64,000 nt of DNA from Cephalotus follicularis (taxonomy: Eukaryota > Streptophyta > Magnoliopsida > Oxalidales > Cephalotaceae). Numbering within the stretch: position 1 is the first letter of the stretch; each line of letters starts with the position of its first letter. The stretch is from the NCBI GenBank assembly GCA_001972305.1, contig BDDD01000173.1:507833-571832 (forward strand). The letters run 5' to 3'. The notes beneath the pieces are model-generated. The model saw only the letters and a list, made by a program, of their open reading frames with translations, was not told the DNA's origin and made no database searches. Shown piece after piece: positions 8,636 through 60,251 of the stretch. The translations under genes and the position numbers were made by a program.

Positions 8636-8945
8636 ATCGTTTGGCGACAAGCGTCATTTCTTAAAATTATTAACGCGCTAAACGACAAAAACGCCAGTAT
8701 TTCCAAGTTTTTTCCTTACAGTGTCAGAGGTTATGAGCAAAGAGTCACCGCTTAAACCTCAAAGCGCTGCCGCTTATACCACGAAGCGTCGCCGGTTAAA
8801 CGCATTAACAAAGAAAATGGGCTTTGAAATTAGTTGACACTTAAGGCATTTCACCGCATAACCAGGGCAAATTGTCGACGCTTTAAAATAGGCAGTCGAC
8901 GCTTTATAAACTGTCGACGCTTATTCTTGGCAGTTGACGCTTTCA
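8636..8945. repeat. Palindrome array in G LTR (GTCGACGCTT type)
   Basis: Several spaced copies of GTCGACGCTT and AAGCGTCG-like half-sites, with decayed forms such as 'gttgacgctttc'. Closest to the AAGCGTCGACGCTT form seen in E. Confidence 0.75.
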
Positions 8946-9043
8946 ACGTTGCAAAACATGCGCAAAACGTTTTCTCACATTACAAGCCCTAGAACAACCA
9001 TATAACAATGACTTCAACAAAATTTCCAGTCCAAAACAAATAG

Positions 9044-9306
9044 CTGGTTATGAGATTGTAGTGAAGTTTGGAATGTACTGTTTTGTAATACTGTATTGAA
9101 GGATTGACAATGTATTGTAAAAGACTAGTATTGTAAAAGATTTGCATTATAATGTATGGATTGATTTGTATTGTATCTTCTGCAAGTGTTATATATTGCA
9201 AAGTTTTAAGTTTTCCGCATTTTTATATTGCTAGTCCCGACCATTGTATTGTGTATTGGTTTGAGTGTAATGCCACGTGTCCGCCCTGCGGGCCCGGGGT
9301 GTTACA
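9044..9306 (+). mobile_element. C 5' LTR, last 263 bp only
   Basis: CTGGTTATGAGATTGTA onward is nearly identical to 24536-24798, C's 3' LTR end, up to the terminal GGGGTGTTACA. The preceding bases do not match that LTR, so the 5' part has been deleted. Confidence 0.85.
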
Positions 9307-9309
9307 GTA

Positions 9310-9321
9310 TAGTATCAGAGA
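9310..9321 (+). other. C primer binding site, initiator Met-tRNA type
   Basis: TAGTATCAGAGA, one change from the TGGTATCAGAG core, 3 bases after the LTR end at 9306. Confidence 0.75.
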
Positions 9322-9488
9322 CATTGGTCGGCCATCTAGCTAAGTATATAAATGCGTTGATGAGATTGACTGAATGGATTTGCATGATACGTGTTCTTGC
9401 TTATTCATGCTATTGTTATTGGAAAAGAGATTGATATTGGAATTGAAAGTGATTGCATCTGATCATCCCATTGTTGTCTCTTATAGTA

Positions 9489-9881
9489 ATGGAAAATAGA
9501 GGAAGGCGTGGCCGACGGGGTGGAAGGAATGCTCCTGCCCTTGCTCCTGCCCCTGCTCCTGTTGATGATGAACTGGCTCCTGGTAATGCTTTTCCGGAGT
9601 ATGATCCCGATGCTCCACCAGTGGGTGCTGACCCTGAGGTTTGGAGACAATTGTGTGCCACTATGGCACAGATGCATACTCTGATGGGACGCCAACAGGC
9701 TAGAGTGGAACGTAGACCAAGGAGGGAAGACATGTTGAGCCACTTCTTAAAGTTGCAGCCTCCAGCATTTGTAGGACTCCCTGATCCTACCCTTGCTGAG
9801 TCTTGGCTAACCCATATGGAAAAGATCTTTGAGGTCATGGGATGTGATTATGAACATAAACTGGTATTGGCAGTGTATATG
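9489..9881 (+). pseudogene. C gag, N-terminal part, cut by copia B
   Basis: ATG at 9489 gives MENRGRRGRRGGRN, an Ala/Pro-rich linker, then the VWRQLCATMAQ and LPDPTLAESWLTHMEKIF regions of the retrotransposon capsid. The frame is open for 131 codons and ends exactly where B is inserted. The last codon, ATG at 9879-9881, overlaps the ATATG target duplication. The same frame continues at 19484 (LQGETEH). Upstream in-frame codons belong to the leader. The MENRG start is chosen because D and H share it. Confidence 0.85.
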
Positions 9882-11497
9882 TGATGGAAACGGACAAAAC
9901 TGAATCTAATGCCATAAATGGACAAGGGTGTAAAAAAAAACAAAACATACAATCATGGCAGCGGAATAACACTCTATTCAAATAAAATTGGTCCATTATG
10001 ACATGTCCACAGACCACATGGATCACCACAACATCTACAGAATTGAATTGGTGTCACCATTACAAACAATGGTGACACACAAGCATGGCAAAAGGAAGAA
10101 GGACCAAGAATTATACCAGCGGGTGAAGGGTCCTTCTTTCTTTGCCGCTACAAGCTTGAGTAGATTCCCCTTTGATGTTCTCCAAGTCTCAGGAACAACA
10201 GGCAATCCAACCAGCATTGATAAAGTGCATGAACTCTCTCTCTCTCACTGAGCTTAGAAAAGGTGTATTGATTTTGACCAATGAAGTCAATAATCAATCC
10301 ACCCTAGATAAGCTCTTGCTTGGTGTATATGAGATGAAGTGAACACACACCGCAGAGAAGAAAATTCGAGCTCTCTTGCCCAGCAAAACTCAAACTTTTT
10401 ACCTCGCAAATTATTTTCTGCAGAAAATGCCTATTTCTAGCCCTCCTTTTTCTCTCCCAATCTCCCATTAACCTTAGATCATGGTCCTCACTCCCTAGGA
10501 GTCCGAAGCCATGATCCCCACGTTTCTAAAACGTGTAAAATCAAGAGAAATCGACTAAGGATGTGAGAGAAAACGTGCCCACGAAGTGAGCTCGTGCACA
10601 GGTTGCACGTTCTGCTCGCCTTTACAAAAGACGTCGACGCCCTTGCAATGTGGTACTAAAAGCATCGATGCTTTCTAAAAGACATCGACGCCTTTCAAAT
10701 GTTAAGCATCGATGTCTTTCTAAAACACGTCGACGCTTTGTCTGTCCAGTGAAGCATTAAGAGTCCAACTCTTTTAGTGATCTCATGTAGCCTTCGAATA
10801 GTGGTTAAGTAAGATCAAACATATGTGTTTCCACAAAATGCAAAATCCACATAACCGATATTTGACACCAAGACTTAATATGTACAACATATTAAAGATC
10901 TAATCATTATAAGTCAGGGACTCTTTAAAATCTTGGTTAAAACGAGAGGTGTTCATAAATTACCGAAATACCCCTAGGGTTCGGTTTAGCCATTCTAAAT
11001 GATCCCAGACCATTTAAATGCTCTCGGAGTAATATCTAATATTATCCAGGTGGAAAGATTAATCTAATTAATTTTCCCATAATTTATTACACACCTCATT
11101 AACCCTAGATTTTATAAGTCGTCGGTTCACGTGTACTATAATCCCTTGTCATGCTTGGCCCCGATTGAGGTCTAGGGTAAGGATATGTGTCAACCCTAGA
11201 TATTACCTCAATGGCTAAAATATCTGATCATTACTAGGACCTTTGGTAAACTCTCTGGAAATCTAATTTCCAGTCTACCTCAACCTTGGCCAAGGATTTC
11301 ATAAGTCCAAAGTATAATCAGACCATAATAGGGCCGATCACCTTCGCTCAGGTGTGATAATCCCTTATTGCGCACTCACTTATATTCATATAGATTCGAT
11401 CATACCCAAAGACCACCCGATTGCCAGCCCTGCGCAAGGACTGGGTAAGGTGGAGATCAAAGCATAACCGTCTCCATACAATATAAAGTAGTCGCTC
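9882..11497 (-). mobile_element. B 3' LTR, truncated by the assembly gap
   Basis: Nearly identical to the 5' LTR (17927 onward) from TGATGGAAACGG to CACGTGTACTAT near 11139. It then carries about 360 bp that the 5' LTR lacks but solo LTR J has (56774 onward: CCCTT, TTGGCCCC and 'cttcgctcaggtgtga' landmarks). It stops at the N run. Complete copies should be about 2.2 kb, judging by J. Confidence 0.88.
10624..10740. repeat. Palindrome array in B 3' LTR
   Basis: About five units such as AAAAGACGTCGACGCCC, AGCATCGATGCTTT, AAAGACATCGACGCCTTT and ACACGTCGACGCTTT. It has one unit fewer than the 5' LTR copy at 18671. Confidence 0.85.
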
Positions 11498-11542
11498 NNN
11501 NNNNNNNNNNNNNNNNNNNNNNNNNNNNNNNNNNNNNNNNNN
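11498..11542. other. Assembly gap (45 N)
   Basis: A run of N joining B's 3' LTR directly to integrase coding sequence. The missing RT, RNase H and LTR start of B may be unassembled rather than deleted. The true length cannot be inferred from the number of N. Confidence 0.99.
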
Positions 11543-12777
11543 TAGAAATAGTATCCTTTAGTCTCTTTAGGATACCCCACAAACCTGCAACGGTCTGACC
11601 GCGCTTCGAGCTTATCTGCGTCAAGCCTTTTGACATAAGCAGGACAGCCCCAAACCTTCAAGTGGCTCAGGCTGGGTTTCCTCCATGACCATACCTGGTA
11701 TGGGGTAGAAGGCACAGATTTTGAAGGAATCTGATTCAAGATATAAGCAGCTGTATCTAGGGCATAACCCCAGAGATAGGTAGGAAGGTCAGCAAAAGAC
11801 ATCATGGATCGAACCATGTCTAACAAAGTCTGATTCCTCCTTTCGGATACACCATTATGCTTTGGTGTTCCAGGAGGAGTCCACTGAGATAGAATTCCGT
11901 TATCTCCAAGATAACCTAGGAATTCTGCTGACAGGTATTCTCCACCTCGGTCCGACCGAAGTATTTTAATGGATTTACCTGTTTGCTTTTCTACTTCAAG
12001 TCTGAACTCCTTAAATTTCTCAAAGGATTCTGACTTGTGTTTCATTAGATACACATAACCATACCTAGATAAATCTTCGGTAAAAGTTATGAAGTAGATA
12101 TAACCACCTCGCGCACTAACTGACATAGGACCACATACGTTAGTATGGACTAAGCCCAGTAAGTCCATAGCCCTTTCTCCTTGACAAGAGAAGGGTGATT
12201 TGGTCATCTTTCCCAATAAACAGGATTCACAAGTTGGATAGGACTCTAAGTCCTGGATATCAAGGAGATTATCCTTAACCAACTGTGATAGTCTAGCATC
12301 ACTAAGATGACCAAGACTACAGTGCCAGGTATAGGTTTTATTTAAGTCAGTTTCTCTTTGTCTTTTCTTATTGTTACTTTGCTCAATGGACAAAATATTT
12401 GATTGTGAACTATTTAGGACATATAATCCATTGTCGATAACGCCATTACCAACACAAACATTGTTTGAATATATAAGACATCCAATGTCTCAGAACCTAA
12501 GCTCCAAGCCGAAACTACATAAGTGAGAAACACTCACAATGTTCTGAACAATGTTCATAACAAAATAACAAGGATCCAATGTAAAAAAAAAATTATTACA
12601 CAAACTAATATCATAAACACCAACAGCTTGAGCAATGATCCTAGATCCATCGCCAAGCCTCAAGTCCAGTTCTCCAGCTCCAAGCTTTCTAACTTTTCTT
12701 AGTCCCTGCAATGAATTGCAAAGGTTAGTTCCACATCCAGTATCTAATACCCATGAAGAACTACTATTCAAAGCTAG
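11543..12777 (-). pseudogene. B copia pol: protease to integrase, truncated at the gap
   Basis: On the minus strand, in the same frame as B gag, the protease active site reads VLDTGCGTNLC (about 12742). A TGA at 12490-12492 breaks the frame. GAG-pre-integrase and integrase follow: zinc region WHCSLGHLSDARL with CESCLLGKMTKSPF, then HTNVCGPM where the first catalytic Asp is expected (Asn here). ILRSDRGGEY carries the second Asp and KHNGVSERRNQT the Glu. Coding continues through the integrase C-terminus (GCPAYVKRL, GYPKETKGYYF) into the N run. Thus one stop, one active-site change and no visible RT/RNase H. Likely inactive. Confidence 0.88.
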
Positions 12778-12986
12778 ATTAATCTTTAGCATAAAAATGT
12801 GTTGTTTTTAATGATTTATTTGTGATATTTTTATGCTTGGAATAGACTACTTTGGTTGTGTTGTGTTGATTTTTAGATATAAGTGCAAAAGGACCAAAGT
12901 GTAAGAATACTACCCAAAGTTGTGCAAATTGGAGATTGAAAGAGTAAAGATTGAAGAATTGACAAATTCGACAGAAAACAGAGTAA

Positions 12987-13075
12987 ACACGTCGATGTCT
13001 ATCATACACCTCGATGTCTTTGCTGGGTTTACAACAAACACGTCGATCTTTCTTTGAGGATCGATGTCTTTTCTG
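12987..13075. repeat. Palindrome array in K
   Basis: Four decayed half or full units: CACGTCGATGTCTATC, CCTCGATGTCTTT, ACACGTCGATCTTTC and AGGATCGATGTCTTTTC. It lies in the 5' non-coding end of an Athila-like element. Confidence 0.7.
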
Positions 13076-13103
13076 GAAAATGCAACTTACCTTCAACTCG
13101 GTT

Positions 13104-14220
13104 CTATCTTTTTGTCATGATCAAGCATGTGGAGGTCATTTCGGCCCAACCAAGACAGCGGCTAAGGTTTTACAATGTGGTTTTTATTGGCCGGCTATTT
13201 TTAAAGATGCATTTCAGTACTGTAAGGCTTGTGCTTCATATCAAGCTTTAGGCCGTGTGACGAAACGAAATATGATGCCTTTGACACCGATTTTGACGGT
13301 CGAGATCTTTGATGTTTGGGGTATTGATTTTCTGGGACCGTTTCCAAATTCATTTGGGAATTTATACATCCTTCTAGTTGTTGATTATGTTTCAAAGTGG
13401 ATTGAGGCGATACCTTGTCAAACCAATGACAACTCCGTCGTTGTTAAATTTCTCAAGGGACATATTTTTTCTCGTTTTGGCACCCCTCGTGCCATTATCA
13501 GTGATAGAGGTACTCATTTTTGCAATCGTTCAGTTGAAGCCCTTATGAAAAGATATGGGATCATTCACAAGCTCGCCACACCATATCATCCCCAAACAAG
13601 TGGGCAAGTTGAAGTATCTAATCGCCAAATCAAGCAATTTCTCAAAAAAAATAGTCAACCCCAACAGAAAGGATTGGTTCACGCGACTTGTGGATGCTTT
13701 ATGGGCTTATCGAACCGCTTTCAAAACTGACCTTGGTCAATCTCCCTACCGTCTTGTGTATGGTAAAGCTTGTCATCTTCCTGTGGAGTTAGAACATCGA
13801 GCATTTTGGGCTATTAAGCAATTCAATTTTGATCGTTCCACTGCGGGTAGTCATCGTGCACTTCAGTTATCTGAGTTAGAAGAAATTTGAAATGACGCGT
13901 ATGACAATGCAAAGATTTCGAAAGAAAAGACCAAGGCTTTTCATGATGCGCGGATTTTGTGGAAAAATTTCGAAGTAGGAGACAAGGTTCTTTTATATAA
14001 TTCACGTTTACATTTGTTTCCTGGAAAATTGAGATCGCGTTGGGATGGTCCTTTTATTGTTAAAAATGTTTTCTCATATGGTGTTTTTGCAATATGTAAG
14101 CCAGGTACTGAAGATGTGTTCAAAGTAAATGGGCAAAGATTGAAGAAATTTTTAGAGATTCCGGCTGCGCCGCTGAAAGAGGCCATGGATTTGCATGAGC
14201 CTCTTTATGAACCTCCATGA
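13104..14220 (+). pseudogene. K Athila-like integrase with one frameshift and one stop
   Basis: Zinc region CHDQACGGHFGPTKTA with CKACASYQ, then catalytic core VWGIDFLGPFP (Asp), AIISDRGTHF (Asp) and [13 protein letters not shown] (Glu). The C-terminal part has [33 protein letters not shown], and the [19 protein letters not shown] domain typical of the Athila clade (no chromodomain). A frameshift falls at a run of eight A (13644-13651). A TGA at 13888-13890 follows LSELEEI, after which the same frame stays open to TGA at 14218. All three acidic residues survive, but the protein is broken. Confidence 0.88.
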
Positions 14221-15177
14221 TGATATTCGGTAAACCCTACCCCTTTGTTCTTTATTTTATTGCATTGTTTCTTATATATTGTGTGATCATGCATTTTTTC
14301 TTTTCTTTAATTTGTTTCTAGTGCATTTAGGACAATGCAAGATTTAAGTATGGGGTGGTTTAGACCAAAGTTCATTTTAATTTTGAAAGTAGGAATAAGG
14401 GTTGATATGCTTAGAGATAATAGAAAAACCCCATAGGAGATAATAAAAATTTTGTTTTCAAGGAAAAGAAAAGGAATGCATCTCAAAGTAGGAATTTTGT
14501 GCGAAAATTAAAATGATAAATAATAATAAAAAAAAGACAAGACCGATCTTTTTGTGTTTTCAAAGTTTCATAAGATTTAATGGAGGAGGATGACAAGGAA
14601 TTGAGGTTCTTGCATATGTGTGTATATATATATGCTGAATAAAAAAAAAATCGGTCTTAGTCTGAAGCCTATTTGATTCGAGTAATTAAACCTTAGGGGT
14701 GTTCTACACCTAGTTCCTTAAAGCCAACTGGTTTGAGAGCAACTGGTCGAAACCTCGCGACATGGATCTTATAGAAAGCTTAAGAGGCTAAGACCTATAT
14801 AAAAAAATCGTTCAATTAAATGGAATTGTTCAATACAATCTACGGTGAGTTTCTATACCGAAAAACCGTTTCTTAATTATATATATTCTCTTCAGTTTTT
14901 ATTAGTTGTTTTGGTTAGATTTAAAATTGCATGCTTTATTTCTTGGTATTTCAAATTCAATGGTTTCAATTATCGAAGTCTTAATTTCTTGTTTTGATTA
15001 TTTATTTTACTTTGCATAATTAGGAGTAGTTTTTGATAGTTTATCTCAAACTCGGTATACTTCGCCTAGGTTGGGTAAATTACAACTAGTTTAACGTTTC
15101 CCTGCGTTCGACCCGTTACTGCATGATCCGTGCACTTGCGGATATAAATTTTAAAACATTCTTTTTAACAGTGAACA
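14221..15177 (+). other. K 3' non-coding region and LTR-like end
   Basis: No ORF of note. It holds a purine-rich 'aagtatggggtgg' (14348-14360) that may be the polypurine tract after 'gcatttaggacaatgcaag'. AT-rich sequence and the 'tgcgttcgacccgttact ... gtgcacttgcgg' end follow. I cannot place the LTR start. Confidence 0.5.
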
Positions 15178-16107
15178 ATTAAGTTCAATCATGAACATAC
15201 CTGATGTACTCGCACCATGCGGGTTATCAGTAGAGACTGCAGCAATAGTAACAAGACAATCCTTTTTCCAGTGCCCGGTCTTATCGCACTGGAAACAAGC
15301 ACCTTCAGCAGCTAACTTCTTCATACGATCTTTGGCAACACCCCCACTAGCTCCAAGCTTTCCCTTCTTCTTCTTCTTTTGCTTCTTCTTACCCTTGCCT
15401 TTTGCGTTGACATGCATGAGTACGCCCTTCCCTTTATAGGAAGACGAGGCACCACCCTTTCCTTGGGCAGACCTAGAAGGAAGAAGTAGGGAGTGGGTCT
15501 TTGACTTCCCAGAGTCAAAATCGGCCTCAGCCATTCTCAACATAGCCACCAGCTCAGGTAGAGTTACCTCTATCTTGTTCATGTGAAAGTTCACCAAGAA
15601 CTGTGAGAACGACTTAGGAAGGGACGTCAGAATAAGATCTACAAATAGATCATGGTCCATGAAAAACCCTAATTGAGCCAGCTGCTCAATCATGTCTATC
15701 ATCTTCAATCCATGCTCATGGATTGAAGCTCCCTCTTGCATCTGAGCCTTAAAGAGTTTACGAGATAGATTGAACCTTTGAGTCCTAGACTCAGCTCCAT
15801 ACATTTCCTGAAGGTGGAGTAGTATAGCAGATAAGGTCTCAATCTTCTCATTCAGACGTTGAAGCTCATGTGTCATCCCGAGAAGGGCAAGACATCTAGC
15901 CTGCTCGTCATCCTCTAGCCACTTGTCTAGTCGCTCGCTCTCTTCGGGCGTCGGATCTTCACCCAGTGAAGGAGGCCCACCAGTCATCACATAGGCCATT
16001 TTATTGGCCGTAAGGACGATCATGAGGTTGCGGTGCCAATCGTTGAAGTTGGGCCCCTCAAGTTTGTTTGTCTCAAGTATACGGGACATTGCATGTGATA
16101 AAGCCAT
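15178..16107 (-). pseudogene. B copia gag with CCHC zinc knuckle, cut by K
   Basis: ATG at 16107 (minus) gives MALSHAMSRILETNKLEG, then NFNDWHRNLMIVLTANKMAYVM, the N-terminal part of the copia capsid. The UBN2-like core has TLSAILLHLQEMYGAESRTQRF and SFSQFLVNFHMNK. A lysine-rich basic stretch follows, then one zinc knuckle, CFQCDKTGHWKKDC (CX2CX4HX4C). About 305 codons are open before K interrupts at GMFMIELN. The frame continues at 12777 with LALNSSSSWVLDTG. The capsid region is otherwise undamaged. The protein would package the element's RNA in virus-like particles. Confidence 0.9.
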
Positions 16108-17913
16108 TCTAGCAACCTAGATAAGGAAATATACGCATGAGTTAGCATTTATTCCAATTTTAATATATGACAACCATAACACTTGGTCTTTAGTGCTTAT
16201 GGTCCCTCCCACTATTCTAATCGTATCCCATACCCCCATATGGAACTCGAGAAGTCTAACTTCCTGTTGGGGATTGGAATCCATCGCAATCATATTATAG
16301 CCTCAGCTAGGGCATGACAAACTATAATATATCCAATGGGTAGGCTTTCTTGCCAATTTGTATCCAATACAAGATCCAATCATAGTATTTGGCCTTAGAT
16401 TCAATATGGCCTCAGCTAGGGCATGACAAACCATCAGAATCTTGATAAGTCAAGTACCCACAATTTTCATTGGAATGCACTAGTTTTAACACCCACACGT
16501 AGGCGTGTCCAAGTGCTAAAACATAGCCACCCTTTACGGTGCCCAACACCGACGTTGACATAACATCCCCAAGTTATCAGCCTCAACTAGGGCATGACAA
16601 ACTAACAACCTAGGAATACTACTCAACGCAAATTGTGGAAGGCCACGGGGAAACACTCCATGGGTTCCTACGTTAAGACTTATTATTGAAGTGAGGGAAT
16701 TTGCGGTCTCCGGTTTTAAATACCATGCCATTAATTAATTCATTGGTTATATTAGCCAATTCCAATTAATTACAGCTTAGCATGCATGACGTGTATCTTA
16801 TGAACCTTGGACATATTTCTAAAATATGTCAATGGATTGGACAGGACATTATTAGTAATGACTTGAGCCCAAAGTCACTACTAGGTCTTCCTAGGTGTAA
16901 TGATTTAAATGTATTTATTACAACAGTAACCATGCATACATGGCCTTCAAAAGTCATGTACTTCATATCTCCTTTTCTCCATCTCTCCTTGCATGGTCTT
17001 CTTTTACAAAAAGAACATTACATTTTCGAAAGGAAAAATACATTTTAAAAATTACAAGGAGAAATTACAAAGGTAAGGAAAAATAAATGGTGCACGCAGG
17101 CCCCTTATTACAGACCTTTAAAGATAATAAATAAATAAAATCCATTCACACATAGAAAACCATAAACTAGGTCAAAGTCCTTTTCGGGCCATCCATTGTG
17201 CATATTATATCCAAAATAATAAAACGACAAATAAAACACATGCCATAAATAATAACAAATTACTGAATTTAATTCAATGATTGTTAATTGATCAAACTCC
17301 CACTAAATCAAGCAATGATTTTTAATTTTCCAGGTGCCAAAATGTATAAAATCCAATTTTATTAAAAACAGTTTTTTTTTATATAAAAGACGTCGATGCT
17401 TATCAACAGCATCGACGTGTTTTCTGGAAATACTTGAACAAGGCGTCGACGCATAACAGGAGCATCAACGCCTTTCTCAAGAACAGTTGAAAAAGGCGTC
17501 GACGTTCAACAAGAACATCGACGCGTTTCACAAAAAGATGAACGAGACATCGACGTCTATCAAGAACGTCGACGTCTTTACTGGGAATATGAATAGAACA
17601 TCGACGTCTACCAAGAACGTCGACGTCTATAGCCCCCTGGGTTGTTTCTGCATTTCTAAAAATGCTGAAAACAATGGTTTAGACTATGGAATACCATTAT
17701 GGCATTCCAAAATGCACTATGCATGTTCCAAACATAATTCTAAACACATTAAAACAAACTTCCCAGCACAAAAACACAATGAAATCCAATTTCATGCAAT
17801 TTTCATTAAGGCACTTTGAAAATTTAGTTTGATCACAAAACACATCCATTAATTAAACCATTAATCAGTACATCATCTAAGGCATACGTATTCAATCAAG
17901 GATGATGTGGGAC
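16108..17913 (-). other. B leader (untranslated region between primer site and gag)
   Basis: About 1.8 kb without a convincing ORF. It holds repeated 'agctagggcatgacaaac' segments (16300, 16415, 16585), also found in the leader of copia A on the other strand near 38680-39010, which ties A and B to one family. It also holds a palindrome array at 17388-17630. Confidence 0.75.
17388..17630. repeat. Palindrome array in B leader
   Basis: About nine units with spacing of 20-30 bp, alternating forms such as AAGACGTCGATGCTT, AGCATCGACGTGTTT, AAGGCGTCGACGCAT, AACATCGACGCGTTT and AACGTCGACGTCTTT. Unlike the other arrays it lies outside the LTR. Translation of the + strand gives a false repeat peptide (KNVDVF). 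Confidence 0.85.
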
Positions 17914-17925
17914 GCTCTGATACCA
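17914..17925 (-). other. B primer binding site, initiator Met-tRNA
   Basis: TGGTATCAGAGC on the minus strand, a perfect 12-base match to the usual plant copia primer site, one base inside the 5' LTR. Confidence 0.92.
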
Positions 17926-17926
17926 C

Positions 17927-19478
17927 TGATTGAAACGGACAAAACCGAATCCAATGCCATAAATGGACAAGGGTGTAAAACAAAACAAAACATACAATCA
18001 TGGCAGCAGAATAACACCCTATTCAAACAAAACTGGTCCATTATGACACATCCACAGACCACATGGATCACCACAACATCTACAGAATTGAATTGGTGTC
18101 ACCATTACAAACAATGGTGACACACAAGCATGGCAAAAGGAAGAAGGACCAAGAATTATACCAGCAGGTGAAGGCTCCTTCTTTCTTTGCCGCTACAAGC
18201 TTGAGTAGATTCCCCTTTGACGTTCTCCAAGTCTCAGGAACAACAGGCAATCCAACCAGCAATGATAAAGTGCATGAACTCTCTCTCTCACTCACTTAGC
18301 TTAGAAAAGGTGTATTGATTTTGACCAATGAAGTCAATAATCAATCCACCCTAGATAAGCTCTTGCTTGGTGTATATGAGATGATGTGAACACACACCGC
18401 AGAGAAGAAAATTCGAGCTCTCTTGCCCAGCAAAACTCAGACTTTTTACCTCTCAAATTCTTTTCTGCAGAAAATGCCTATTTCTAGCCCTCCTTTTTCT
18501 CTCCCAATCTCCCATTAACCTTAGATCATGGTCCTCACTCCCAAGGAGTCCGAAGCCATGATCCCCACGTTTCTAAAACGTGTAAAATCAAGAGAAATTG
18601 ACTAAGGATGTGAGAGAAAACGTGCCCACAAAATGAGCTTGTGCACAGGTTGCACGTTCTGCTCGCCTTTACAAAAGATGTCGACGCCTTTACAAAAGAC
18701 GTCGACACCCTTGCAATGTGGCACTAAAAGCATCGATGCTTTCTAAAAGACATCGATGCCTTTCAAATGTTAAGCATCGACGTCTTTCTAAAAGACGTCG
18801 ACGCTTTGTCTGGCCAGTGAAGCATTAAGAGTCTAACTCTTTTAGTGATCTCATGTAGCCTTCGAATATTGGTTAAGTAAGATCAAACATATGTGTTTCC
18901 ACAAAATGCAAAATCCACATAACCGATATTTGACACCAAGACTTAATATGTCCAACATATTAAAGATCTAATCATTATAAGGCTGGGACAATTTAAAATC
19001 TTGGTTAAAACGTGAGGTGTTCATAAATTATCGAAATACCCCAAGGGTTCGGTTTAGCCATTCTAAATTATCCCAGACCATTTAAATGCTCTCGGAGTAA
19101 TATCTAATATTATCCAGGTGGAAAGATTAATCTAATTAATTTTTCCATAATTTATTACACACCTCATTAACCCTAGATTTTCTAAGTCGTCGGTTCACGT
19201 GTACTATCACAAAGTGAACCTATGACTTGGAACAAATTTGACATAAGGAATAAGGAAACCAGTCTCACAGCCTCCATGCCAGGCATCCAACCTTATGTCA
19301 GGGCATCACTAGTATAAGTAGGTAATTAATAAACTACTTCAATTATGTGATAAAATACAAGTGATATAGCCATAACAAATTTAGCACGCATGATATATAA
19401 GGAATAAGATTGTTTCATACAATAACAGATATAAAACGACAGTCCATCCAATGGCTTGTCGGGTCACTATATCTAACA
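17927..19478 (-). mobile_element. B 5' LTR (1552 bp, internally deleted)
   Basis: TGTTAG...AATCA on the minus strand. Compared with J and with B's own 3' LTR it lacks roughly 620 bp between CACGTGTACTAT (near 19207) and CACAAAGTGAACC. The deletion removed sequence still present in the 3' LTR, so it happened after integration. Confidence 0.88.
18671..18808. repeat. Palindrome array in B 5' LTR
   Basis: About six units, including tandem AAAAGATGTCGACGCCTTT and AAAAGACGTCGACACCC. One extra unit of about 21 bp compared with the 3' LTR. Confidence 0.85.
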
Positions 19479-19483
19479 ATATG

Positions 19484-24941: not shown

Positions 24942-24946
24942 AGCGA

Positions 24947-45737: not shown

Positions 45738-46002
45738 CAAGCTGGTTAGGCAAATAGAGTCTAACTCTTAAATGAGTCCAACTCATTTTATCCCTTCTAA
45801 TATTGATTAAGTAAGATCAAGCAAATATGTTTCCACAAATTACAAGATTCACCTAACCGATATTTGATTTTATAAAATACACTAAGACTTAATATGTCCA
45901 ACATATTAATGTACTAATCAGTATTGGACATGGACACTTTAAAATCTCGGTTAATATCGGTGGTGTTCATAAATTACTGAAATACCCCTAGGCATTCTAA
46001 AT

Positions 46003-48329: not shown

Positions 48330-48330
48330 A

Positions 48331-48343
48331 TCTACCCTCCTTA
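48331..48343 (-). other. E polypurine tract
   Basis: TAAGGAGGGTAGA on the minus strand, adjacent to the 3' LTR. Confidence 0.75.
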
Positions 48344-48367
48344 CAAAAATTTTGTCCTCACAATTTG

Positions 48368-51300: not shown

Positions 51301-51670
51301 CGGTATCCATCACATAGGCAAGATAGCCTTCACATCCTCTTTCCAATAATCGCTTACCTTGCATCTTCGATATGATCTTTAAGCGTTCACTGGCTCCCAT
51401 GCTTCGGAAAACAAACTCAAGTTGTTCCGGCATAGCAAACCTAACTTCCTTCTTAAAACAGTCAACACTAGCATGATTCGCTGAAAGCCAATCCATGCCT
51501 AGTATGACGTCAAACTTTACGATTTCTAGAGGTACTAAGTCTACTAGCATCATCCTATCACATAATATTAAGTCACAAGACTTGTGTACTTTATCAGCCA
51601 CCAAAGTATTACCACTTGGGGTTTCAACAGCTAAACCTATCTCCAAATCTGGTGATGGGGTACTTAAATA
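48368..51670 (-). pseudogene. E pol: RT, RNase H, integrase, chromodomain, with two internal stops
   Basis: Same frame as gag. After the TGA at 51671 come the protease C-terminal part ([20 protein letters not shown]), RT ([36 protein letters not shown] at 50702-50713), TAG at 50666, RNase H ([33 protein letters not shown]), integrase ([30 protein letters not shown]), TGA at 49226, then [11 protein letters not shown] with the catalytic Glu. The chromodomain is [15 protein letters not shown] ... ATWELEDTM, ending HLFKSNV. Motifs are intact apart from the stops. It would be about 1490 codons with gag. Confidence 0.93.
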
Positions 51671-52838
51671 TCATGCAAAAGATAAAGACACAAAAGAATG
51701 CGTCGCTCCCGTATCAAACAAAGCATATGCAGATTTAGAGCATATGGGAAAAGTACCTGTCACCACGTTATTGGGATTTTCCACCTCTTCAGCCGTCATG
51801 GCATATGTTCTTGCTGGTGCTCTTTGTTGCCGGGCTCCGTTCCCTCCTTGCCCTCCCATCTTTGGTCGGGTGCATTGATTGGACACATGTCCTTCTTGTC
51901 CACAGTTGTAGCATCTGATCACCCTTTGATTCTGGGCTTGGTTTGGTCCTTGTTGACACTCTTTAGCTAAGTGTCCTTGCTTTCCACATTTGTAACACAC
52001 TCCCGTCCCATATAAACATTTCCCACGGTGTCTTTTCCCACATTATTGACAAAATTTTGAGTCTTGTCCTCCATCAGACCTTGCTTTCTTATGCTTACTA
52101 TTAGAGGATTCACCTGTTTTCCTCTTCCCTTGCCCTTGTTCAGCTCGTGTTTGCTGGTATCTTTGATTATCAATTTCTATCCTCAGTGCACACCTCAAAA
52201 CTACGTCATAAGTCTCTAGATCTTGTGCTATCACCAGCCTTCAGATATAAGATTTCAGACCTTGGCAAAACCTGTTTGCCCTTCTTTCTTTAGTTGATAC
52301 CAGATGAGTCGCATAAGACATTCTAGCAAAGTTTGCTTCGTAATGAGCCACTGTTTCGGACTCACCTTGCTCCAGTTGGAGAAAATCTTCCTCCATTTTA
52401 TCTCTCAAAGCTTGCGGAAAATATTTGTTCATAAATATTTCCTTGAACCCTTCCCACGTCATCACCTCTCTTTCTCGACGCGTCTTGGTTCTCTCAACCA
52501 TACACCACCATTGACCCGCCTCTCCATCCAACTTGTATATTGAAAACTCTACTTTCTGTCGGTCTGTACAATCCATCGCTCTAAAAATCTTCTCGTTCCC
52601 TTGGATCCATGCTTCCGCTTCCAAAGGATCAGTTGTTCCCGAAAAGATTTTCGGATTGTGTCTCGCAAACCGCTCTAGCGTCGGTCTTGAGGGTGGATGC
52701 TCTTCATGATTATTACTGTTGTTGTCGGCAATAACTTGAGCCAATCAGTTTAAAATCGTGCTCAGCGAATTATCATCCTCGTTGTTTTGTGCGTTCGCGT
52801 TTCTTCTTTGTCCTCTTCCTCTTCTCGCGTCGGCCATC
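51671..52838 (-). pseudogene. E gag and protease active site, four internal stops
   Basis: ATG at 52838 (MADARRGRGQRR), TGA at 52745, capsid core FARHNPKIFSGTTDPLEAEA, YKLDGEAGQWW and MNKYFPQALRDKMEEDFLQL, then TGA at 52241 after GLKSYI. The nucleocapsid has three Cys-rich units: a first reading CGKRHRGKC next to a TAA at 52043, then CYKCGKQGHLAKEC and CYNCGQEGHVSNQC. Protease LFDTGATHSF is intact near 51710, followed by the TGA at 51671. All parts share one frame with pol. Confidence 0.92.
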
Positions 52839-53037
52839 TAGTTAGCATATGTAGGTTAGTTCTTAATCTTAAGCAATTCTACTCATATGCTAGATAAAGC
52901 AGTTAAATTCTAATGCTCAAGATCATACAAGGAACTAACAGTTTCATTTATCTTATAAACCTTTATACATCTCCTATACTTCCTTTCTCACTTATCTCGC
53001 ATATAAACATTTTTACAAAATCTTTCTTATCGTTACC

Positions 53038-53424
53038 CTAGTCTTCATCACTAGGGATATCATTATCAGGCAGCTCCTGTTGAATCCGCCTTATCATCAT
53101 TCGAAGGTTCTCTCTCACACCAGTCATCACAATGTCATTAAGTCCCCAAATGTATCTCATAAGTACCATAAGGTCATATTTTATTTCTCTGAGGGTTTCG
53201 TCTTTCCTTTCTAACTCTTCACGGTACTCTGCCTCCATCTGGTAAATGTGTATATAGAATTGCTCTCTATTATTTGCTACCATTTGTCTTAACTCTTCCT
53301 TTTCTTCACGCAATTGTTGGTTTTTAGCTATCAGGGTTCGTACTCGCCAGTGTACCGTTTCGGATGATCCACAACGGGAGAATCCTGTACTAGAATTGGA
53401 GTTGGATTCGCTCGTTGATGACAT
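53038..53424 (-). CDS. E leader ORF: 128-residue predicted coiled-coil protein of unknown function
   Basis: On the element's sense strand, first ATG after the primer site (start at 53424, about 60 nt downstream of it), ending at 53038, about 200 nt before gag and in a different frame. Residues 1-20 are Ser/Asn/Thr-rich (SSTSESNSNSSTGFS). Residues about 27-80 are Glu/Lys/Gln/Leu-rich with heptad-like spacing (NQQLREEKEELRQM, YREELERKDETLREIK), suggesting a coiled coil. A more hydrophobic stretch (YDLMVLMRYIWGLNDIVM) follows, then an acidic tail (PDNDIPSDED). No zinc knuckle, signal peptide or known enzyme motif. It is unbroken although gag-pol has six stops. C, D and F have no such ORF. It could be an accessory protein or a chance ORF. 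Confidence 0.55.
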   Translation of the reverse strand: MSSTSESNSNSSTGFSRCGSSETVHWRVRTLIAKNQQLREEKEELRQMVANNREQFYIHIYQMEAEYREELERKDETLREIKYDLMVLMRYIWGLNDIVMTGVRENLRMMIRRIQQELPDNDIPSDED

Positions 53425-53481
53425 CTGAAAAATAGGTTAGCAAATACACAAATCATATCCTCAACACGTATCACAATTATC

Positions 53482-53493
53482 TCTCTGATACCA
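53482..53493 (-). other. E primer binding site, initiator Met-tRNA
   Basis: TGGTATCAGAGA on the minus strand, four bases inside the 5' LTR end. Confidence 0.9.
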
Positions 53494-54113
53494 TTCCTGT
53501 AACGACCCCAACTCGAGCTCGCTAATAGCTCAAAGTGAACTCCGAGGATCGGTTACGTTACGTTGGGTGTGAAACGTTACATCCTTTGGTACTATTTTCT
53601 AAAAGTACACTACATCATAAACTCATGTCTTGCAACATCATACATAATCTCAAATTCAAACTTTACACATAATCATCTTATATAAAGATGTCATAACCAT
53701 ATCGTTGGTCTACATTACACAGGATCATCCTTCTACATAAAAATATAATACAGCGGAAAAACTTTGTTCTTATTACATATCAAAACATTTATGCAAACAT
53801 CGTTGCATAACCTTTCTTTCACAAAAACTCCTTCTTAAGAGCTTCCTCTAAGCTCGTAATCTTCATTTATTCATTTACTGAAAACATTTAATTTGAAAAC
53901 AACATTGAAAGGAATGAGCTCAAAATAGCTCAGTAAGGTGTTTTTATAGTAAACACATTTCATCATAACATTTTTCTAGTCAATACATATAACTAGAACA
54001 TTTCATAAAGCATGTCACTTTTCTAATTACAAACTCGTAACTAGAACATTTCATAAACATAGAAGTCATAAAAACCTTAATGAACCCTTTACACCGCTTC
54101 ACCGGGGCATTGT

Positions 54114-55769
54114 GCACTCCCCGACTACTATCCTTACATCACATGCATGTCCGTGAGCATCTCGCTCCATTCCCCTTGGATCGCAATCCAAGGGCGGTTC
54201 ATTCATCATTTAGTTTGAGTGATCAAATCAAAGCAATCATAAAAATCATTTCATAACATTTCTTTCACAATTCATAAACTTTTCTCTTCATTTGAGTAAT
54301 TGACTCAAATAAGTTCATAAAAACAATTTTGCATAGCTTTGCGAAAATTGATAATTCATATAGAAATAAGCCTTTTTAGTGAAAACATAAAACATAAACA
54401 TTAAAGTAGACATATTTATGAATTCATAAAATTCAAGATCATAACAATTGGTTGAGAATTGAATCCGTTATGAATTTTTGAGAGTGGCTGGTTCCATATG
54501 AAAACAGGGCATGAGCAGTAAAAGGAAACATTAATTCTCATCCAGAATTCGATAGAATTTCGAGATACATAGAAAATAACAGTTAAAGAGGACATCTTAA
54601 GGTTTTCAAAACATCCAACCATTTAATTTTTCATCACGAAACGAGCAAGATATGATTTAAAGAATTTGGTACATAACCTAGGAATAAAATAGTACCCAGA
54701 CAGCAATTTAAAACATTGATTTTCATCAAGAAATAGATAGAATCTTGAAACGTGCGAAGCATGACAGTTAAAGAGGACATCCTAACGTTTCTCGAACATC
54801 CTACCATTTAAAAATTCATCAAGAATTGAGGAAGATATCAATAGAATAATCTGCTGCTTAACTTTGAATCAAAACAGAGGAAGCTTTGACATAAATGGGT
54901 ATAGGAATTCCTTACTTTGCTTTAGAATTTCTTTCTCTTTTGCACTCCTCGACTACTATCCTTACATCACATGCATGTCCGTGAGCATCTCGCTCCATTC
55001 CCCTTGGATCGCAATCCAAGGGCGGTTCATTCATCATTTAATTTGAGTGATAAGCTCAAAGCAAACCTAAAAATCATTTCATAACATTTCTTTCACAATT
55101 CATAAACTTTTCTCTTCATTTGAGTAATTGACTCAAATAAGTTCATAAAAACAGTTTTGCATAACTTTACGAAAACTAATAATTCATACAGAAATAAGCC
55201 TTTTCAGTGAAAAACTAAAACATAAACATTAAATTAGACATATTTATGAATTCATAAAACTCAAGATCATAACAATTGGATGAGAATTGAATCCGTTATG
55301 AATTTTTTAGAGTGGCTGGTTCCATATGAAAACAGGGCATGATCAGTAAAATGAAACATTAATTCTCATCAAGAATTCGACAGAATTTCAAGATACATAG
55401 AACATAAAAGTTAAAGAGGACATCTTAAGGTTTTCAAAACATCCAACCATTTAATTTTTCATCAAGAAAAAAGTAAGATATGATTTAAAGAAGTTGCTGG
55501 ATAACCTAGGAATAAAACAGTACCCAGACAACAATTTAAAACATTTATTTTCATCAAGAAATAGATAGAATCTTGAAACGTGCAAAGCATAAAAGTTAAA
55601 GGGGACATCCTAACGTTTCCAAAATATCCTACCATTTAAAAATCCATCAAGAATTGAGGAATATATCAATAGAACAATCTGCTGCTTAACTTTGAATCAA
55701 AACAGAGGAAGCTTTGACATAAATGGGTATAGGAATTCCTTACTTTGCTTTAGAATTTCTTTCTCTTTT
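54114..55769 (-). repeat. 828 bp tandem duplication in E 5' LTR
   Basis: GCACTCCCCGACTACTATCC starts at 54114 and GCACTCCTCGACTACTATCC at 54942. The whole block (TTACATCACATGCATGTCC, GGATCGCAATCCAAGGG and the AT-rich part) is repeated once. The 3' LTR has a single copy. The join replaces 'ttttgctctccc' with 'ttttgcactcct', pointing to a short-homology jump. Confidence 0.93.
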
Positions 55770-56080
55770 GCTCTCCCACGAATTCTTCACTTCACTCTCA
55801 GCAGGAGCACTTTCCTTCTCAGCCAAAATGACTGAGTTCAACCCTCTTTTCCATTAAATATAAGGATTACTTGGGAGGCATGTCTTCTCCCCTTCTCACA
55901 GAACTCAACTCTCTCTCTTGGTAGCCCATGTGCTCAAATTCAACCAATCCAAGTGATGACACTTGTTAGATCATCTGATAAAATCTCATATCATCCTTCC
56001 TTGGCCTTCCACGTGTCCAAAATTAAATATTTTCACTCACAAAATGCCAAAAAGTCAGATTTTACATTTTGTCTGTAGCT

Positions 56081-56418
56081 CAAAGCGTCGACGTTTTCTC
56101 CCTAAGCGTCGCCGGTCACGGGCTTGACCTGAGTTCTCCACTTCTATCCCGACTAAAGCGCTGATGCTTCCTTACAAAGCGTCGCCACTTTAAGTCTTCC
56201 TCCAGGTCAACTGACACACTTGACTTCAACGCATCCACGTTTTCAATTAGAGCGTCGTCCGTTGCCCAAAGCGTCGACTCTTTCTCGTAAGCGTCGCCGG
56301 TGTGAGGGCTTTGTCCAATTTACGTTGCACTGGTTTAAAGCGCAGATAGAAGGGGTCTAAGCGCCGCCCGTTACTACCCAAGCATCGACACTTGAAGTGG
56401 AACTATCAGCACTTAAGA
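56081..56418. repeat. Palindrome array in E 5' LTR
   Basis: Same units as in the 3' LTR, with a few C/T and G/A differences, e.g. AAGCATCGACACTTG versus AAGCGTCGACGCTTG. Confidence 0.82.
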
Positions 56419-56654
56419 CAGTTTTTCCTTCTCATCACTTAGCCAAATTCCATTTTCTTCCGGGGGTGCAGACCCGAGCCCCTGCCCGCTGATCGGGCAG
56501 TGGGACCCCCATCTGCTCACCGGGGAGCAGAACCACCGAAACCCCTGAGCGTAGGGTCATACTACGGGTCCCTTGAACTATTTACCAAAATACATACTAG
56601 CAATCATTTTCCATAATTAATATCTTACATGGAAATTTAGGTCATTACATAAAT

Positions 56655-57664
56655 GTTCTTGGAATAATATCCAATACCATTCAGATGGAAAAATTAATCT
56701 AATTAATTTTCCCATAATTTGTTACACACCACTTTAACCCTAGATTTTCTAAGTTATCGGTTCACGTGTACTATAATCCCTTATCATACTTGGCCCCTAT
56801 TGAGGTCTAGGGTAAGGATACGTGTCAAACCTAGATAAAACCTCAATATCTAAAATATATGATTATTACTAGGACCTTTGGTAGATTGTCTGGAAATCTA
56901 ATTCCCAATCTACCTCAACCTTGGACAAGGATTTCATAAGTCCAAAGTACAATCAGACCATAATAGGGTCCATCACCTTCGCTCAGGTGTGACAATCCCT
57001 TATTGCGCACTCGCTTATATTCGTATAGATTAGATCATACCCAAAGACCACCCGATTGCCAGCCGTGCATAAGAACTGGGTAAGGTAGATATCAAAGAAT
57101 AACCGTCTCCATACAATATAGAGCAGTCACTCAGGTCTAAGGATCAGACGAGTTTGAGAACTCGCTAAGTGACTAACACTTATACACAACCGCAACAAGT
57201 AGGAGTAACTGCTGACATGAGAATAACGACTATCCAAACAGTGTTTCCTACGCGGGTCCAGTTCAGTGTACTCACTCCCAGTGCACACCCTGTATTTTAC
57301 CTAGTGTCCAACACAGATGGTAGTGAGAGAATCCATCCTCCAATTCCATGAGCAGGCAACATACACGCAAGTCTAACCGGTTCACTAATGCCCACAAAGT
57401 GAACCTAGAATTTGAACTAATTCGACATAAGGAATAAGGTAACCAATCTCACAGCCTCCATGCTAGGCATCCAACCTTATGTCAGGGCATCACAAGCGTA
57501 AGTAGGTAAATAATAAACTACTTCAATTAAGTGATAAAACACAAGTGATATTGTCATAACAAATTAGCACATGTCATATATAAAAGGAATAAGATTGTTT
57601 ATATACAAGGATAGATATAATACGATAGCCCATCCAATGGCTTGTCGGGTCACTACATCTAACA
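56655..57664 (-). mobile_element. J, right part
   Basis: Matches B's 3' LTR around 11060-11490 and B's 5' LTR end around 19200-19478. Supplies the middle LTR segment (56774-57395) that B's 5' LTR has lost. No coding content; the 60-codon ORF at 57169 is chance. Confidence 0.88.
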
Positions 57665-57669
57665 GTAAG

Positions 57670-57780
57670 GATGTAGAAGTTCCTGACGAAACTTAGGGTT
57701 GTTCCATCCATTTCTAGTTCGTCAGTTCTATACTGCGATGGAGGCCAATGCACAGGTCAGGGATGAAAGCAAAATACTTG
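57670..57780 (+). pseudogene. A RNase H tail
   Basis: After the GTAAG duplicate the translation gives pieces resembling the end of copia RNase H: RNLGLFHPFLV, VLYCDGGQCT and ESKIL. It ends at about 57780 where similarity to copia stops and L begins. Confidence 0.65.
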
Positions 57781-58968
57781 TTTTTGGCCATTTTAGGTTT
57801 TAGGTGATAGGATATTCAACTTTAATTTTCATCAAAGCAGGCCGCAAGCCCATGAACATCCTATAATCTAACTCCGTAAATGATCACAACCGTCCTAGGA
57901 TCGCTAATCAACTGCCCAATTAAACAAACAATCAACAAGCATTCTTTACAAGTCATTGCTATGTCCAACAAAACAATAACTTGCATATAGAGAAGGTTAG
58001 AGATTATACCAAACAACCAAACTCCTTCCTTCAAGAATCCGATCTGAAACTTCAAGCTTTAACATAGAAACAAAACAGCCAATCCGAATCCTATATATCT
58101 AATCCTAGTCTAGGATCAATAGAAGATGTATAAAGCTTTGTGAAGCAACACATCACCTATAGAAATCAGGTAGTAGTGTTGAGGATAGTGGTATAAAGCT
58201 TTTTCTCTATTCTATGTGTTGTTCTCTAAGAACAAAAACCAGATTGCTCTCTCTCTCTCTCTCTGCCTCTATAAAACGTCTAGCATATTGCAGAAGACCA
58301 TGTTATCTCTCTCTTATGCTTTTTAATCACCCAATAATCAAATGCACAATAATAGGGTCACCATAAACACAAAACGTGTTACCAGGATTTCACTCCATGA
58401 ATACAATCCAGTTTCCTTTCTTTGGTGCCATGACATACGACTTGTAACAATTGCTGCTACTTTCCATATAGGTTGTCCAACAACCAAGACGCGTTAATGA
58501 TCTTAATTTCCATCCAGCCAGTGAGAAAAGAGATAGAGAATTATAATCCAATTATGCTTCAACACCATAATCCTACTAGTATGTTATGTCAACTAAATAG
58601 TCACGTAACATACTAATACACCACAATATGACATGTGCCATCACACGTCATAATACTATACGATATATATATCCAATACATATCATCGTGAGGTGGGACC
58701 CGAAAGTACGAAATAAAATCGGTAACGATGGTATGTTACTAAGACGCCCCACTTTTAAGTAAACTTACCATAAATAGTCCTCGACTATTTTAAGACTCTG
58801 AACCTATAACCATCATATTCTAGGTGTGTAAATTAATCCACGATCAATTTCCACAAATTAATTCCATTTTTGATACATCCGGTACTTTATCCTGACGACA
58901 GTTACCGTGTACTATAATATCTCATCATCCTCGGCTCCGATCATGGCCTAGGGCAAGGATATGTGTCA
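57781..58968 (-). mobile_element. L: partial copia LTR related to A's LTR, cut by F
   Basis: Read on the minus strand from 58968: 'ccttgccctaggccatga', then 'gaggatgatgaga' with ATTATAGTACACGG. This parallels A's LTR at 28070-28120. The rest is AT-rich with no ORF of note and a CT repeat at 58247-58264. The right end is interrupted by F. The left end has no clear terminus. Confidence 0.6.
58247..58264 (+). repeat. (CT)n microsatellite in L
   Basis: Nine CT dinucleotides, followed by GCCTCTATAAAAC. Confidence 0.85.
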
Positions 58969-59132
58969 TGTAATGACCGCAATTTCAATTCAATGTATAT
59001 TGTATGATTCATGAATAAAATTATACATTTATATGAGATTATTTGCTAATTCTACTTTTAATTAGCTTATTGTTATCGGTATTGAAGGAAGATAAGTCTA
59101 AGTGCTGAATGTAAAGGAATCAGGACACTTGC

Positions 59133-59340
59133 GCGTCAATTCCATGGAATGACGTCGACACCGAGTAATACTGAAACGTGCTTAAGGCTTCTTGCCTAAA
59201 GGCGGTGACACCATGCGAGGACGTTAACATACATTGCTTGTGAATGGAAGGGAGTTAGGCGTTAATGTGACTAAGTGAGAGCTTGTTAACGCTAAACATG
59301 GAGTCAACGCGTCGATGCCTAAAGTGTCGGCATCATACGT
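59133..59340. repeat. Scattered palindrome units in F LTR
   Basis: ATGACGTCGACACC, ACGCGTCGATGCCTAA and similar, widely spaced. Confidence 0.6.
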
Positions 59341-59849
59341 TAAAGGAAGGACAGAAGACATATGAGGAGCAAAAAGTGCGAGATTTTGTAGTTCCCCTTG
59401 CTCTACACTGACGAAAAGTGAGAGAAGAGTGACTGATGGAGGTCTTGTCACCTGCCATGAGGAAGGAGAGGGAGGAGTGACTCCATTAAATCTCCTCTCC
59501 TCTTCTCCGAACCTCACACCAGTGAAAGAGAGAGTGAGTGAGAGCATTGTTGTTTCGCCACTTAAGCCGGGAAAAGAAGCTTGAGGACCAGATCTTGGAA
59601 CTTGAAAGTGGAGTGATCGAACCGGATCTTGAGGCTTGGAGAAGCTGAGGATCATATTAAAGCTTATGAAGTTGACTTTCAATTCCTAACTTGGAATCAA
59701 AGGTAGGCAGTAGGGTTTATGACATGTTTATGAAATTATGGCATGTGTATTGTGTTATGGTGATTGTGAGTGCTTGCATGTTGATTCCAAGTGTTAAATC
59801 CATGCTTGATTGAAATGATTGTTAACTGATTGTCCTTTTGCATTCGATT

Positions 59850-60251
59850 CACGTCGACGCCTAAGTGATTGACGTTAACGCCTTAACTAGAATAGGCGGT
59901 ATTTAGTACGGATAGGTTGGTTTTTGTCAACGCCTAAGTGGTTGACGTTAACACTATAACTGGAAATAGTTGATGTTTCGGGTGGTTAGGATGATTTACG
60001 TCGACGCCTAAGTGCATGTTGACGCATAAAACCTACTGGTTTCCAGTACATTGACGCCTAAAAGGACGACGTTGACGCTTAAGGTTCCTACATTAATGCG
60101 TCGACGCCAATGTTGAACATTGACGCCTAAGGTCCTTCCTAAATGCGTTAACACACGTGGGTAAAGAGTGACGCATAGATGACGTTAACGCCTAAGATAA
60201 ACGTTGACGTATAAGTGCACGTTGATGCCTAAGATACACGTCGACGCCTAT
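59850..60251. repeat. Palindrome array in F 5' LTR (GTCGACGCCTAAG type)
   Basis: About sixteen units, many as CGTCGACGCCTAAG or GACGTTAACGCCTTAA, plus GTTGACGC variants, with spacing around 20-30 bp. The flank is CTAA rather than CTTT. The core is the same CGTCGACG. Confidence 0.82.

Follow-up and report, generated by a model that had tools for sequence, protein, structure and literature searches.

A 64,000-nucleotide stretch of the Cephalotus follicularis genome (contig BDDD01000173.1, positions 507,833 to 571,832 of the forward strand; hereafter the window) raises the question of why copia and gypsy retrotransposons should carry arrays of one short palindrome in their long terminal repeats (LTRs). 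Nested LTR retrotransposons, which we refer to by letters, make up most of this 64-kb plant window. Pfam was run on 10 of its 20 open reading frames of at least 150 amino acids, and 10 of 10 were retroelement proteins: copia proteins in element B and gypsy-type proteins in C, D, E and F (domains among PF03732, PF08284, PF17921 and PF24626), with a further gypsy-type integrase fragment beside K. An earlier note on this DNA had labelled the elements copia, chromovirus and Athila-like; for Athila-like, Pfam backs no more than a gypsy-type integrase. On balance, and with modest confidence, we favor the view that the arrays are putative clusters of enhancer sites for one host DNA-binding protein, gained independently by several retrotransposon lineages.

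Fifteen array intervals, 4,074 bp in total, were drawn after the motif had been seen. The arrays named in the earlier note are all present near where it had placed them. Eleven are listed here, and those in C, the D 5′ LTR, I and the E 5′ LTR are given with their LTRs further below.

8636-8943, minus strand: G array, with GACGCTT half-sites and GCGTCGAC units, CpG observed/expected 1.69; it probably lies in a minus-strand LTR remnant.
10627-10740: B 3′ LTR array, 5 units.
12985-13071: K array, 4 units in two pairs, just before a gypsy integrase fragment (open reading frame 12987-13730, plus strand), inside B.
17386-17630, minus strand: array of the B leader; its ten units form five pairs and lie approximately 285-530 nt after the primer-binding site.
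18674-18808: B 5′ LTR array, 6 units.
25818-26120, tentatively plus strand: H array; a CT-rich stretch at 25320 lies approximately 480-800 bp upstream of it.
30137-29801, minus strand: D 3′ LTR array.
45588-45736, minus strand: J array, in copia LTR J.
47758-48085, minus strand: E 3′ LTR array.
59148-59322, plus strand: F1 array.
59847-60251, plus strand: F2 array.

At one score threshold and with one copy per family, the number of units was 4 in G, 10 in the B leader, 6 in the B LTR, 4 in K, 12 in D, 8 in H, 5 in J, 5 in E, 3 in F1 and 11 in F2. Two elements have two arrays each, B (in the LTR and after the primer-binding site) and F (approximately 525 bp apart). Arrays had been reported from leaders as well as from LTRs; this holds for B, where the array at 17386-17630 lies between the primer-binding site and gag, and no other element was shown to have one.

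The 18-mer originally proposed as common to all arrays (AAAGRCRTCGAYGYCTTT) fits those of B, C, D, I, H and K, while E, F, G and J have variants around the same GTCGAC core; at up to 3 mismatches there was no match in G or E and one each in J and F. A consensus was drawn from the 56 TCGA sites of one array per family, with TCGA as the selection rule and the flanks left free. It reads as an A-rich stretch followed by R(-5) C(-4) R(-3) TCGA Y(+3) G(+4) Y(+5) and a T-rich stretch, with C at -4 in 46 sites, G at +4 in 44, R at -3 and -5 in 53 and 54, and Y at +3 and +5 in 53 and 53, while the 157 TCGA sites outside arrays were without such a flank preference. The pattern was seen in the five groups examined, being weaker on the right side in E and G, and a TCGA with these C, G, R and Y flanks is the best common denominator of the arrays. 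An ACGT core, which had been suggested as the basis of a transcription factor site, is absent from the many ATCGAT units, while C and G at -4 and +4 around TCGA are kept, and for this reason a bZIP-type ACGT core was rejected as the conserved feature. A resemblance to the half-sites of RWP-RK/NLP proteins was considered but is not claimed.

The half-sites also differ in the distance to their flank. E and G have GAYG-CTT only (6 each), whereas C, D and I have GAYG-Y-CTT (10, 12 and 13, respectively), plus one GAYG-Y-CTA each and zero GAYG-CTT. Both GAYG-CTT and GAYG-Y-CTT are present in the B LTR, the B leader, J and H; F2 has 6 GAYG-Y-CTA and one GAYG-CTT, and its GAYGYYT half-sites are all in element sense (8/8). 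The two copia LTRs lean in different directions, albeit in small numbers (6 long and 4 short in the B LTR, 2 long and 4 short in J). The flank register crosses superfamilies, being long in C, D and I, short in E and G, mixed but leaning long in copia B and leaning short in copia J, as if it tracked a factor or an era of activity rather than element ancestry.

The motif is strongly enriched over shuffled sequence within the window. Allowing up to 3 mismatches, the 18-mer matches the whole window at 59 places, compared with 0.26 expected in shuffles, and the octamer CRTCGAYG occurs 56 times where 1.65 were expected, with 56/56 inside the 15 array intervals and 0 in the other ~60 kb. The latter agrees with the prior statement that P and the LTR of element A are without the motif. 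The half-site GACGCYTW occurred 38 times (2.99 expected), again always inside arrays (38/38). Because the intervals were set post hoc, the density inside them is no test; the absence outside, the shuffles and a census of palindromes are. In this census of all 256 palindromic 8-mers, 300 were seen and 258 expected, and CGTCGACG (17 versus 0.11) and CATCGATG (16 versus 0.87) provided 32 of the excess of 42. Looser forms were less confined: GACGYYT lay outside arrays in 4 of 76 cases and GTYRAC in 43 of 97, and three short half-site forms were found inside versus outside arrays 68/9, 37/5 and 14/2 times (16 of 135 outside).

Units tend to come in pairs. A unit score of 14 out of 20.4 proved very lax, with 416 calls outside arrays, and the spacing statistics obtained from it were set aside; four stricter thresholds still gave 122, 49, 20 and 7 calls outside. 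At these four thresholds, neighbor spacings of 18-22 bp accounted for 33/63, 31/59, 25/55 and 23/44 of the spacings within arrays. Of the 10 arrays with unit lists at one threshold, 8 had such pairs. The B leader has five pairs with 19 bp within and 32-34 bp between pairs, K has two pairs of 18-19 bp with 32 between, and D has pairs at 19-22 bp. This 20-bp pairing is suggestive of binding on one face of the DNA.

The LTR array precedes a TATA-like box in B, E and G but follows a conserved TATA box in D and I. The G array lies upstream of a good TATA-like box, TATAAATA (8571-8564, minus strand), the B 5′ LTR array approximately 190 bp upstream of the TATA-like CTAGAAATAGGC (18487-18476), and the E 3′ LTR array upstream of two copies of the TATA-like TATTTAAT, at 47706 and 47537. 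D and I have a conserved GACTATATAAG box followed by a CT-rich leader; TATATAAG, common to both, is at 30639-30632 in D, with the array approximately 500-840 bp downstream, and at 43862-43855 in I, with the array approximately 540-890 bp downstream.

In order to compare arrays between superfamilies, we counted distinct 8-mers shared by each of 25 array pairs and compared them with 300 dinucleotide shuffles. Sharing exceeded all 300 shuffles in 14 of the 25 pairs, and in 8 of the 12 copia-gypsy pairs (a copia array against a C/D/I-, E-, F- or G-type array). The B LTR and D shared 32 8-mers against 1.9 in shuffles, the B leader and D 25 against 2.9, J and D 19 against 1.5, J and E 14 against 1.8, and J and G 15 against 2.5 (0/300 shuffles reaching these values). 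With 8 of 12 pairs above shuffles, the outcome that the earlier note had named as refuting its claim, arrays with no copia-gypsy similarity above chance, did not arise within this window. When the units were masked, no copia-gypsy similarity was left within the arrays in blastn searches at E up to 0.1, although the B-J and D-I relationships were still found. Matches of masked copia sequence to other families (B LTR-F, 31 bp; B LTR-G, 29 bp; B leader-H, 47 bp at 68%) were all outside arrays. The lack of a copia-gypsy match after masking implies that what is shared is a short motif and not a recently moved module.

A module may nonetheless have been exchanged at an earlier time, the array having evolved in one lineage and been copied by recombination or template switching, with later divergence of the spacers. 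Unmasked alignments span several units (B leader-D, 47 bp at 77%; B LTR-D, 94 bp at 61%), the copia B LTR and gypsy D have 32 8-mers in common, and nested insertions have brought the families side by side. Against this stand the loss of copia-gypsy similarity between masked arrays, the varying place of the array relative to the promoter, and the flank register of E and G, which is unlike that of D. We consider such an exchange unlikely, and a recent transfer was rejected as the simplest reading since nothing but the units matches.

Conservation of the units was assessed in related LTRs. Between D and I, identity was 167/198 (84.3%) in units, 120/161 (74.5%) in array spacers and 1399/1849 (75.7%) in the rest of the LTR, and CpGs in common numbered 13/21, 1/8 and 23/76, respectively. 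Values for C versus I were like those for D versus I (161/198, 115/161 and 1228/1594). The two D LTRs, which diverged after insertion, had 188/194 (96.9%) identity in units, 148/151 (98.0%) in spacers and 1143/1198 (95.4%) in the rest. These comparisons suggest that the units were under constraint while the elements were active. Furthermore, the B 5′ LTR has one 21-bp palindrome unit more than the B 3′ LTR (18660-18815 compared with 10620-10745), so that the gain or loss of array units can be seen directly.

The CpGs of the units invite another explanation, in which a host or transposon-encoded factor would keep the LTR unmethylated through CpG-rich arrays, as VANC does at VANDAL repeats. CpG observed/expected is 0.84-1.91 in arrays and 0.60 elsewhere, many unit CpGs are retained between lineages, and VANC targets are described in the relevant passages of one report as tandem arrays of short motifs in non-coding parts of transposons (PMC10398659). 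However, the motif itself accounts for the CpG richness, and VANC targets are stated there to differ among related families, whereas here one motif extends across unrelated ones. All 10 frames with Pfam results are retroelement proteins, although these are 10 of the 20 frames and no search was aimed at VANC. Such a role in methylation control appears to us rather improbable, more so than an old exchange of modules.

RNA folding of the arrays, expressed as z scores against 40 shuffles each, was far below shuffles in D, I, the B leader, C and B5 (-10.5 to -8.2), moderate in J, H and K (-5.1 to -4.0) and showed little excess in E (-2.4), F2 (-2.2), F1 (-1.1) and G (-0.5). A hairpin source of small RNA, as had been suggested, would thus not be common to all arrays, and an RNA hairpin as common denominator was rejected given near-chance folding in G and F1. 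A role as hairpin source or silencing target, in which folded transcripts of the palindromes would supply RNA-directed DNA methylation (a scheme proposed for maize Sireviruses), is the least probable of these alternatives and in our view a poor one, since despite the very strong folding of five arrays and the location of those in D/I and the B leader downstream of the promoter, where they are probably transcribed, G, F1, F2 and E have the motif with little excess folding, the F2 half-sites all face one way, and silencing alone would give an element no reason to retain units.

The earlier note had put forward four explanations without choosing among them: a transcription factor array, a hairpin source of small RNA, a methylation nucleation site and an exchanged module. 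Of these, that of a transcription factor array fits best, though not by way of an ACGT core. We infer that one sequence-specific DNA-binding protein of the host, or a few related proteins, would bind the TCGA-centered dyad as a dimer, with two sites approximately two helical turns apart as the preferred layout. Whether placed before or after the start site, the array would enhance transcription of the retrotransposon, and the same site would have been gained and amplified independently by unrelated LTR retrotransposon lineages of this genome, with array size changing as units are gained or lost in steps of approximately 20 bp.

Several observations weigh against this proposal. Left-right coupling within the dyad was not significant (p = 0.11 at ±3, 1.0 at ±5; p = 0.14 on a differently chosen set of sites), and strict compensatory change was accordingly rejected. 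Shuffles reached the observed sharing in 4 of the 12 copia-gypsy pairs (B LTR-E, 3/300; B LTR-F2, 22; B LTR-G, 78; B leader-E, 94) and in other pairs (D-G, 59/300; E-F2, 59; D-E, 27; F2-G, 14; D-F2, 11). The TATA boxes are weak in B and ambiguous in E, and no TATA was found for F or H. Pairs in E and F1 appear only with the laxest unit calls, and 18-bp units force spacings to approximately 18 or more, so that 20-bp pairing is no proof of binding on one face. Longer spacings showed a weak preference for multiples of 10.5 bp (p = 0.16 at the strictest threshold and 0.008-0.015 at the other three), and as spacings within one array are not independent, the case for helical phase past the first neighbor is weak. 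With respect to constraint, the C-D unit excess is small (91.4 versus 88.9%, 89.2 versus 86.4%), and the unit mask was drawn from motif matches, which favors unit identity. CpGs were better kept in units (17/21) than in the rest (23/37) within the D LTR pair as well, so part of the CpG result may not reflect selection.

That copia and gypsy elements of a single genome have one palindrome in common suggests a shared host factor, and one probe could be enough to isolate it. More speculatively, and we regard this as doubtful, one host regulator, perhaps a germline or gametophyte factor, may control much of the LTR retrotransposon load of this plant as a single shared switch, with copia, chromovirus-type gypsy and other elements having converged on the paired palindrome. 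The arrays offer a way to test whether transposons of separate origin converge on one host switch and whether their binding sites shift together over time.

The elements that carry the arrays are as follows.

9882-11497, minus strand: B copia 3′ LTR side, 94.8% identical to the 5′ LTR over 1281 bp, ended by a run of N.
15151-16116, minus strand: B copia gag (PF14223), best relatives in Cephalotus follicularis.
17914-17925, minus strand: B primer-binding site TGGTATCAGAGC, adjoining the 5′ LTR end.
17927-19479, minus strand: B copia 5′ LTR, with array and weak TATA-like box inside.
22744-24798, plus strand: C gypsy 3′ LTR with its left end deleted; contains array 23077-23412.
28514-30818, minus strand: D gypsy 3′ LTR, beginning TGTGACGACCCG after a purine tract.
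30872-35533, minus strand: D gag-pol open reading frames (PF03732, PF08284, PF00078, PF17921, PF24626).
35610-37172, minus strand: D 5′ LTR, both ends cut, array 36505-36840.
41626-44046, minus strand: I gypsy LTR (TGTAACGACC...GGGTGTTACA), array 43323-42976.
44815-46002, resuming at 56650-57665, minus strand: J copia LTR, a B relative at 68-74%, split by E; left end approximate.
46003-48329, minus strand: E gypsy 3′ LTR; the target-site duplication TAAAT flanks E on both sides.
53498-56649, minus strand: E gypsy 5′ LTR, containing array 56081-56295 and an internal tandem duplication of ~828 bp.
58969-60260, plus strand: F gypsy LTR, first ~1.3 kb, arrays F1 and F2.

A protein search with the B gag frame gave 63 relatives, 54 of them listed as Cephalotus follicularis and 7 from other organisms; for 2 the organism name was not visible. 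A run of 45 N at 11498-11542 conceals the reverse transcriptase region and the 3′ LTR junction of B, which looks deleted or misassembled there. Copia B (9375-19479, with gypsy fragment K within) was apparently inserted in gypsy C, splitting its gag region, and gypsy E (46003-56649) sits inside copia LTR J (44815-57665) between copies of TAAAT. The ~828-bp tandem duplication is confined to the E 5′ LTR, the 3′ LTR being without it. LTR ends of TGTAAYGACC are common to E, I and F, whose array regions were not alignable at the threshold used. A stretch of element H (26742-27185) is 78% identical to 2061-2484, which belongs to an element close to the window's left edge.

Splice-donor-like sequences stand before the downstream arrays of I (GTAAGT type, 43704-43699, minus strand) and F (GTAGG type, 59703, plus strand), so these arrays could lie in a 5′ untranslated region intron; the one in I falls in a gap of the alignment with D. 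In IMG/VR, the 18-mer was found in 23 contigs, one unit each, and a two-unit pattern in 51. None of these 74 loci had two ARRCRTCGAYGYYT matches within 300 bp, and they therefore look like chance or coding matches; the D polymerase had no match in IMG/VR. The short IMG/VR contigs L027, L028, L041, L044 and L045, and also L049, L064, L069 and L074, carry a 22-bp near-palindrome (approximately TCGAYGCCTTNNAARGCRTCGA) at a similar place (starts 404-520), perhaps a conserved coding motif unrelated to the arrays.

Repeats of host transcription-factor sites act as stress-responsive LTR enhancers in the BII boxes of Tnt1 and the heat elements of ONSEN. To our knowledge, such repeats belong to single families each and are not one palindrome across copia and gypsy. 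A search of open-licence literature gave no report of the motif, or of one palindrome common to copia and gypsy LTRs, and a search of it for Cephalotus retrotransposons brought up nothing evidently on the arrays. Other systems resemble the arrays in part. The VANC-target repeats of VANDAL transposons, as outlined in the passages concerned, are likewise short motifs in expanding and contracting arrays in non-coding transposon regions, but in VANDALs, which are DNA transposons, the binder is encoded by the transposon and each family has its own motif, whereas the motif here is common to unrelated retrotransposons (PMC10398659). Martin et al. (2023; PMC10760457), citing Bousios et al. (2016), describe a maize Sirevirus palindrome (CACCGGAC...GTCCGGTG) as a hot spot of small RNA and report that it is also present in Helitrons, which provides a precedent for sharing across transposon classes. 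The maize palindromes and the present ones alike form clusters in LTRs that fold as RNA; according to the same paper, maize Ty3 elements are generally without an obvious structure peak, in contrast to the palindromes found here in gypsy LTRs (Martin et al., 2023).

The RM boxes of Sireviruses (Ty1/copia) are, in the portions of the original description that deal with them, palindromic units of approximately 10-20 bp, present in 3-14 copies per 3′ LTR, that form CpG islands upstream of a TATA box; some elements have further copies in their internal region, and the sequence varies around a fixed CGG-CCG core, although Tnd-1 (unit ACAATCGATTGT), like the arrays here, is without CGG-CCG (Bousios et al., 2010; PMC2829016). 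The same portions report the motif as Sirevirus-specific and absent from classic retrotransposons. Of the host elements in the window, C, D, E and F are gypsy-type and hence not Sireviruses, and B is a copia element (PF14223) whose clade was not placed by phylogeny. The Sirevirus polypurine tract AGGGGGAG, which lies upstream of the 3′ LTR, had 0 matches in the window (1.27 expected by chance), where the B 3′ LTR junction is lost in the run of N. The arrays are like the RM boxes as there described in being clustered, CpG-rich LTR palindromes with a fixed core and internal copies in some elements. They are unlike them in having CRTCGAYG and not CGG-CCG as the core, in occurring in Ty3/gypsy LTRs too, and in lying upstream or downstream of the promoter. 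A kind of palindrome array described as a Sirevirus trait is here extended, with a different core, to the LTRs of Ty3/gypsy elements.

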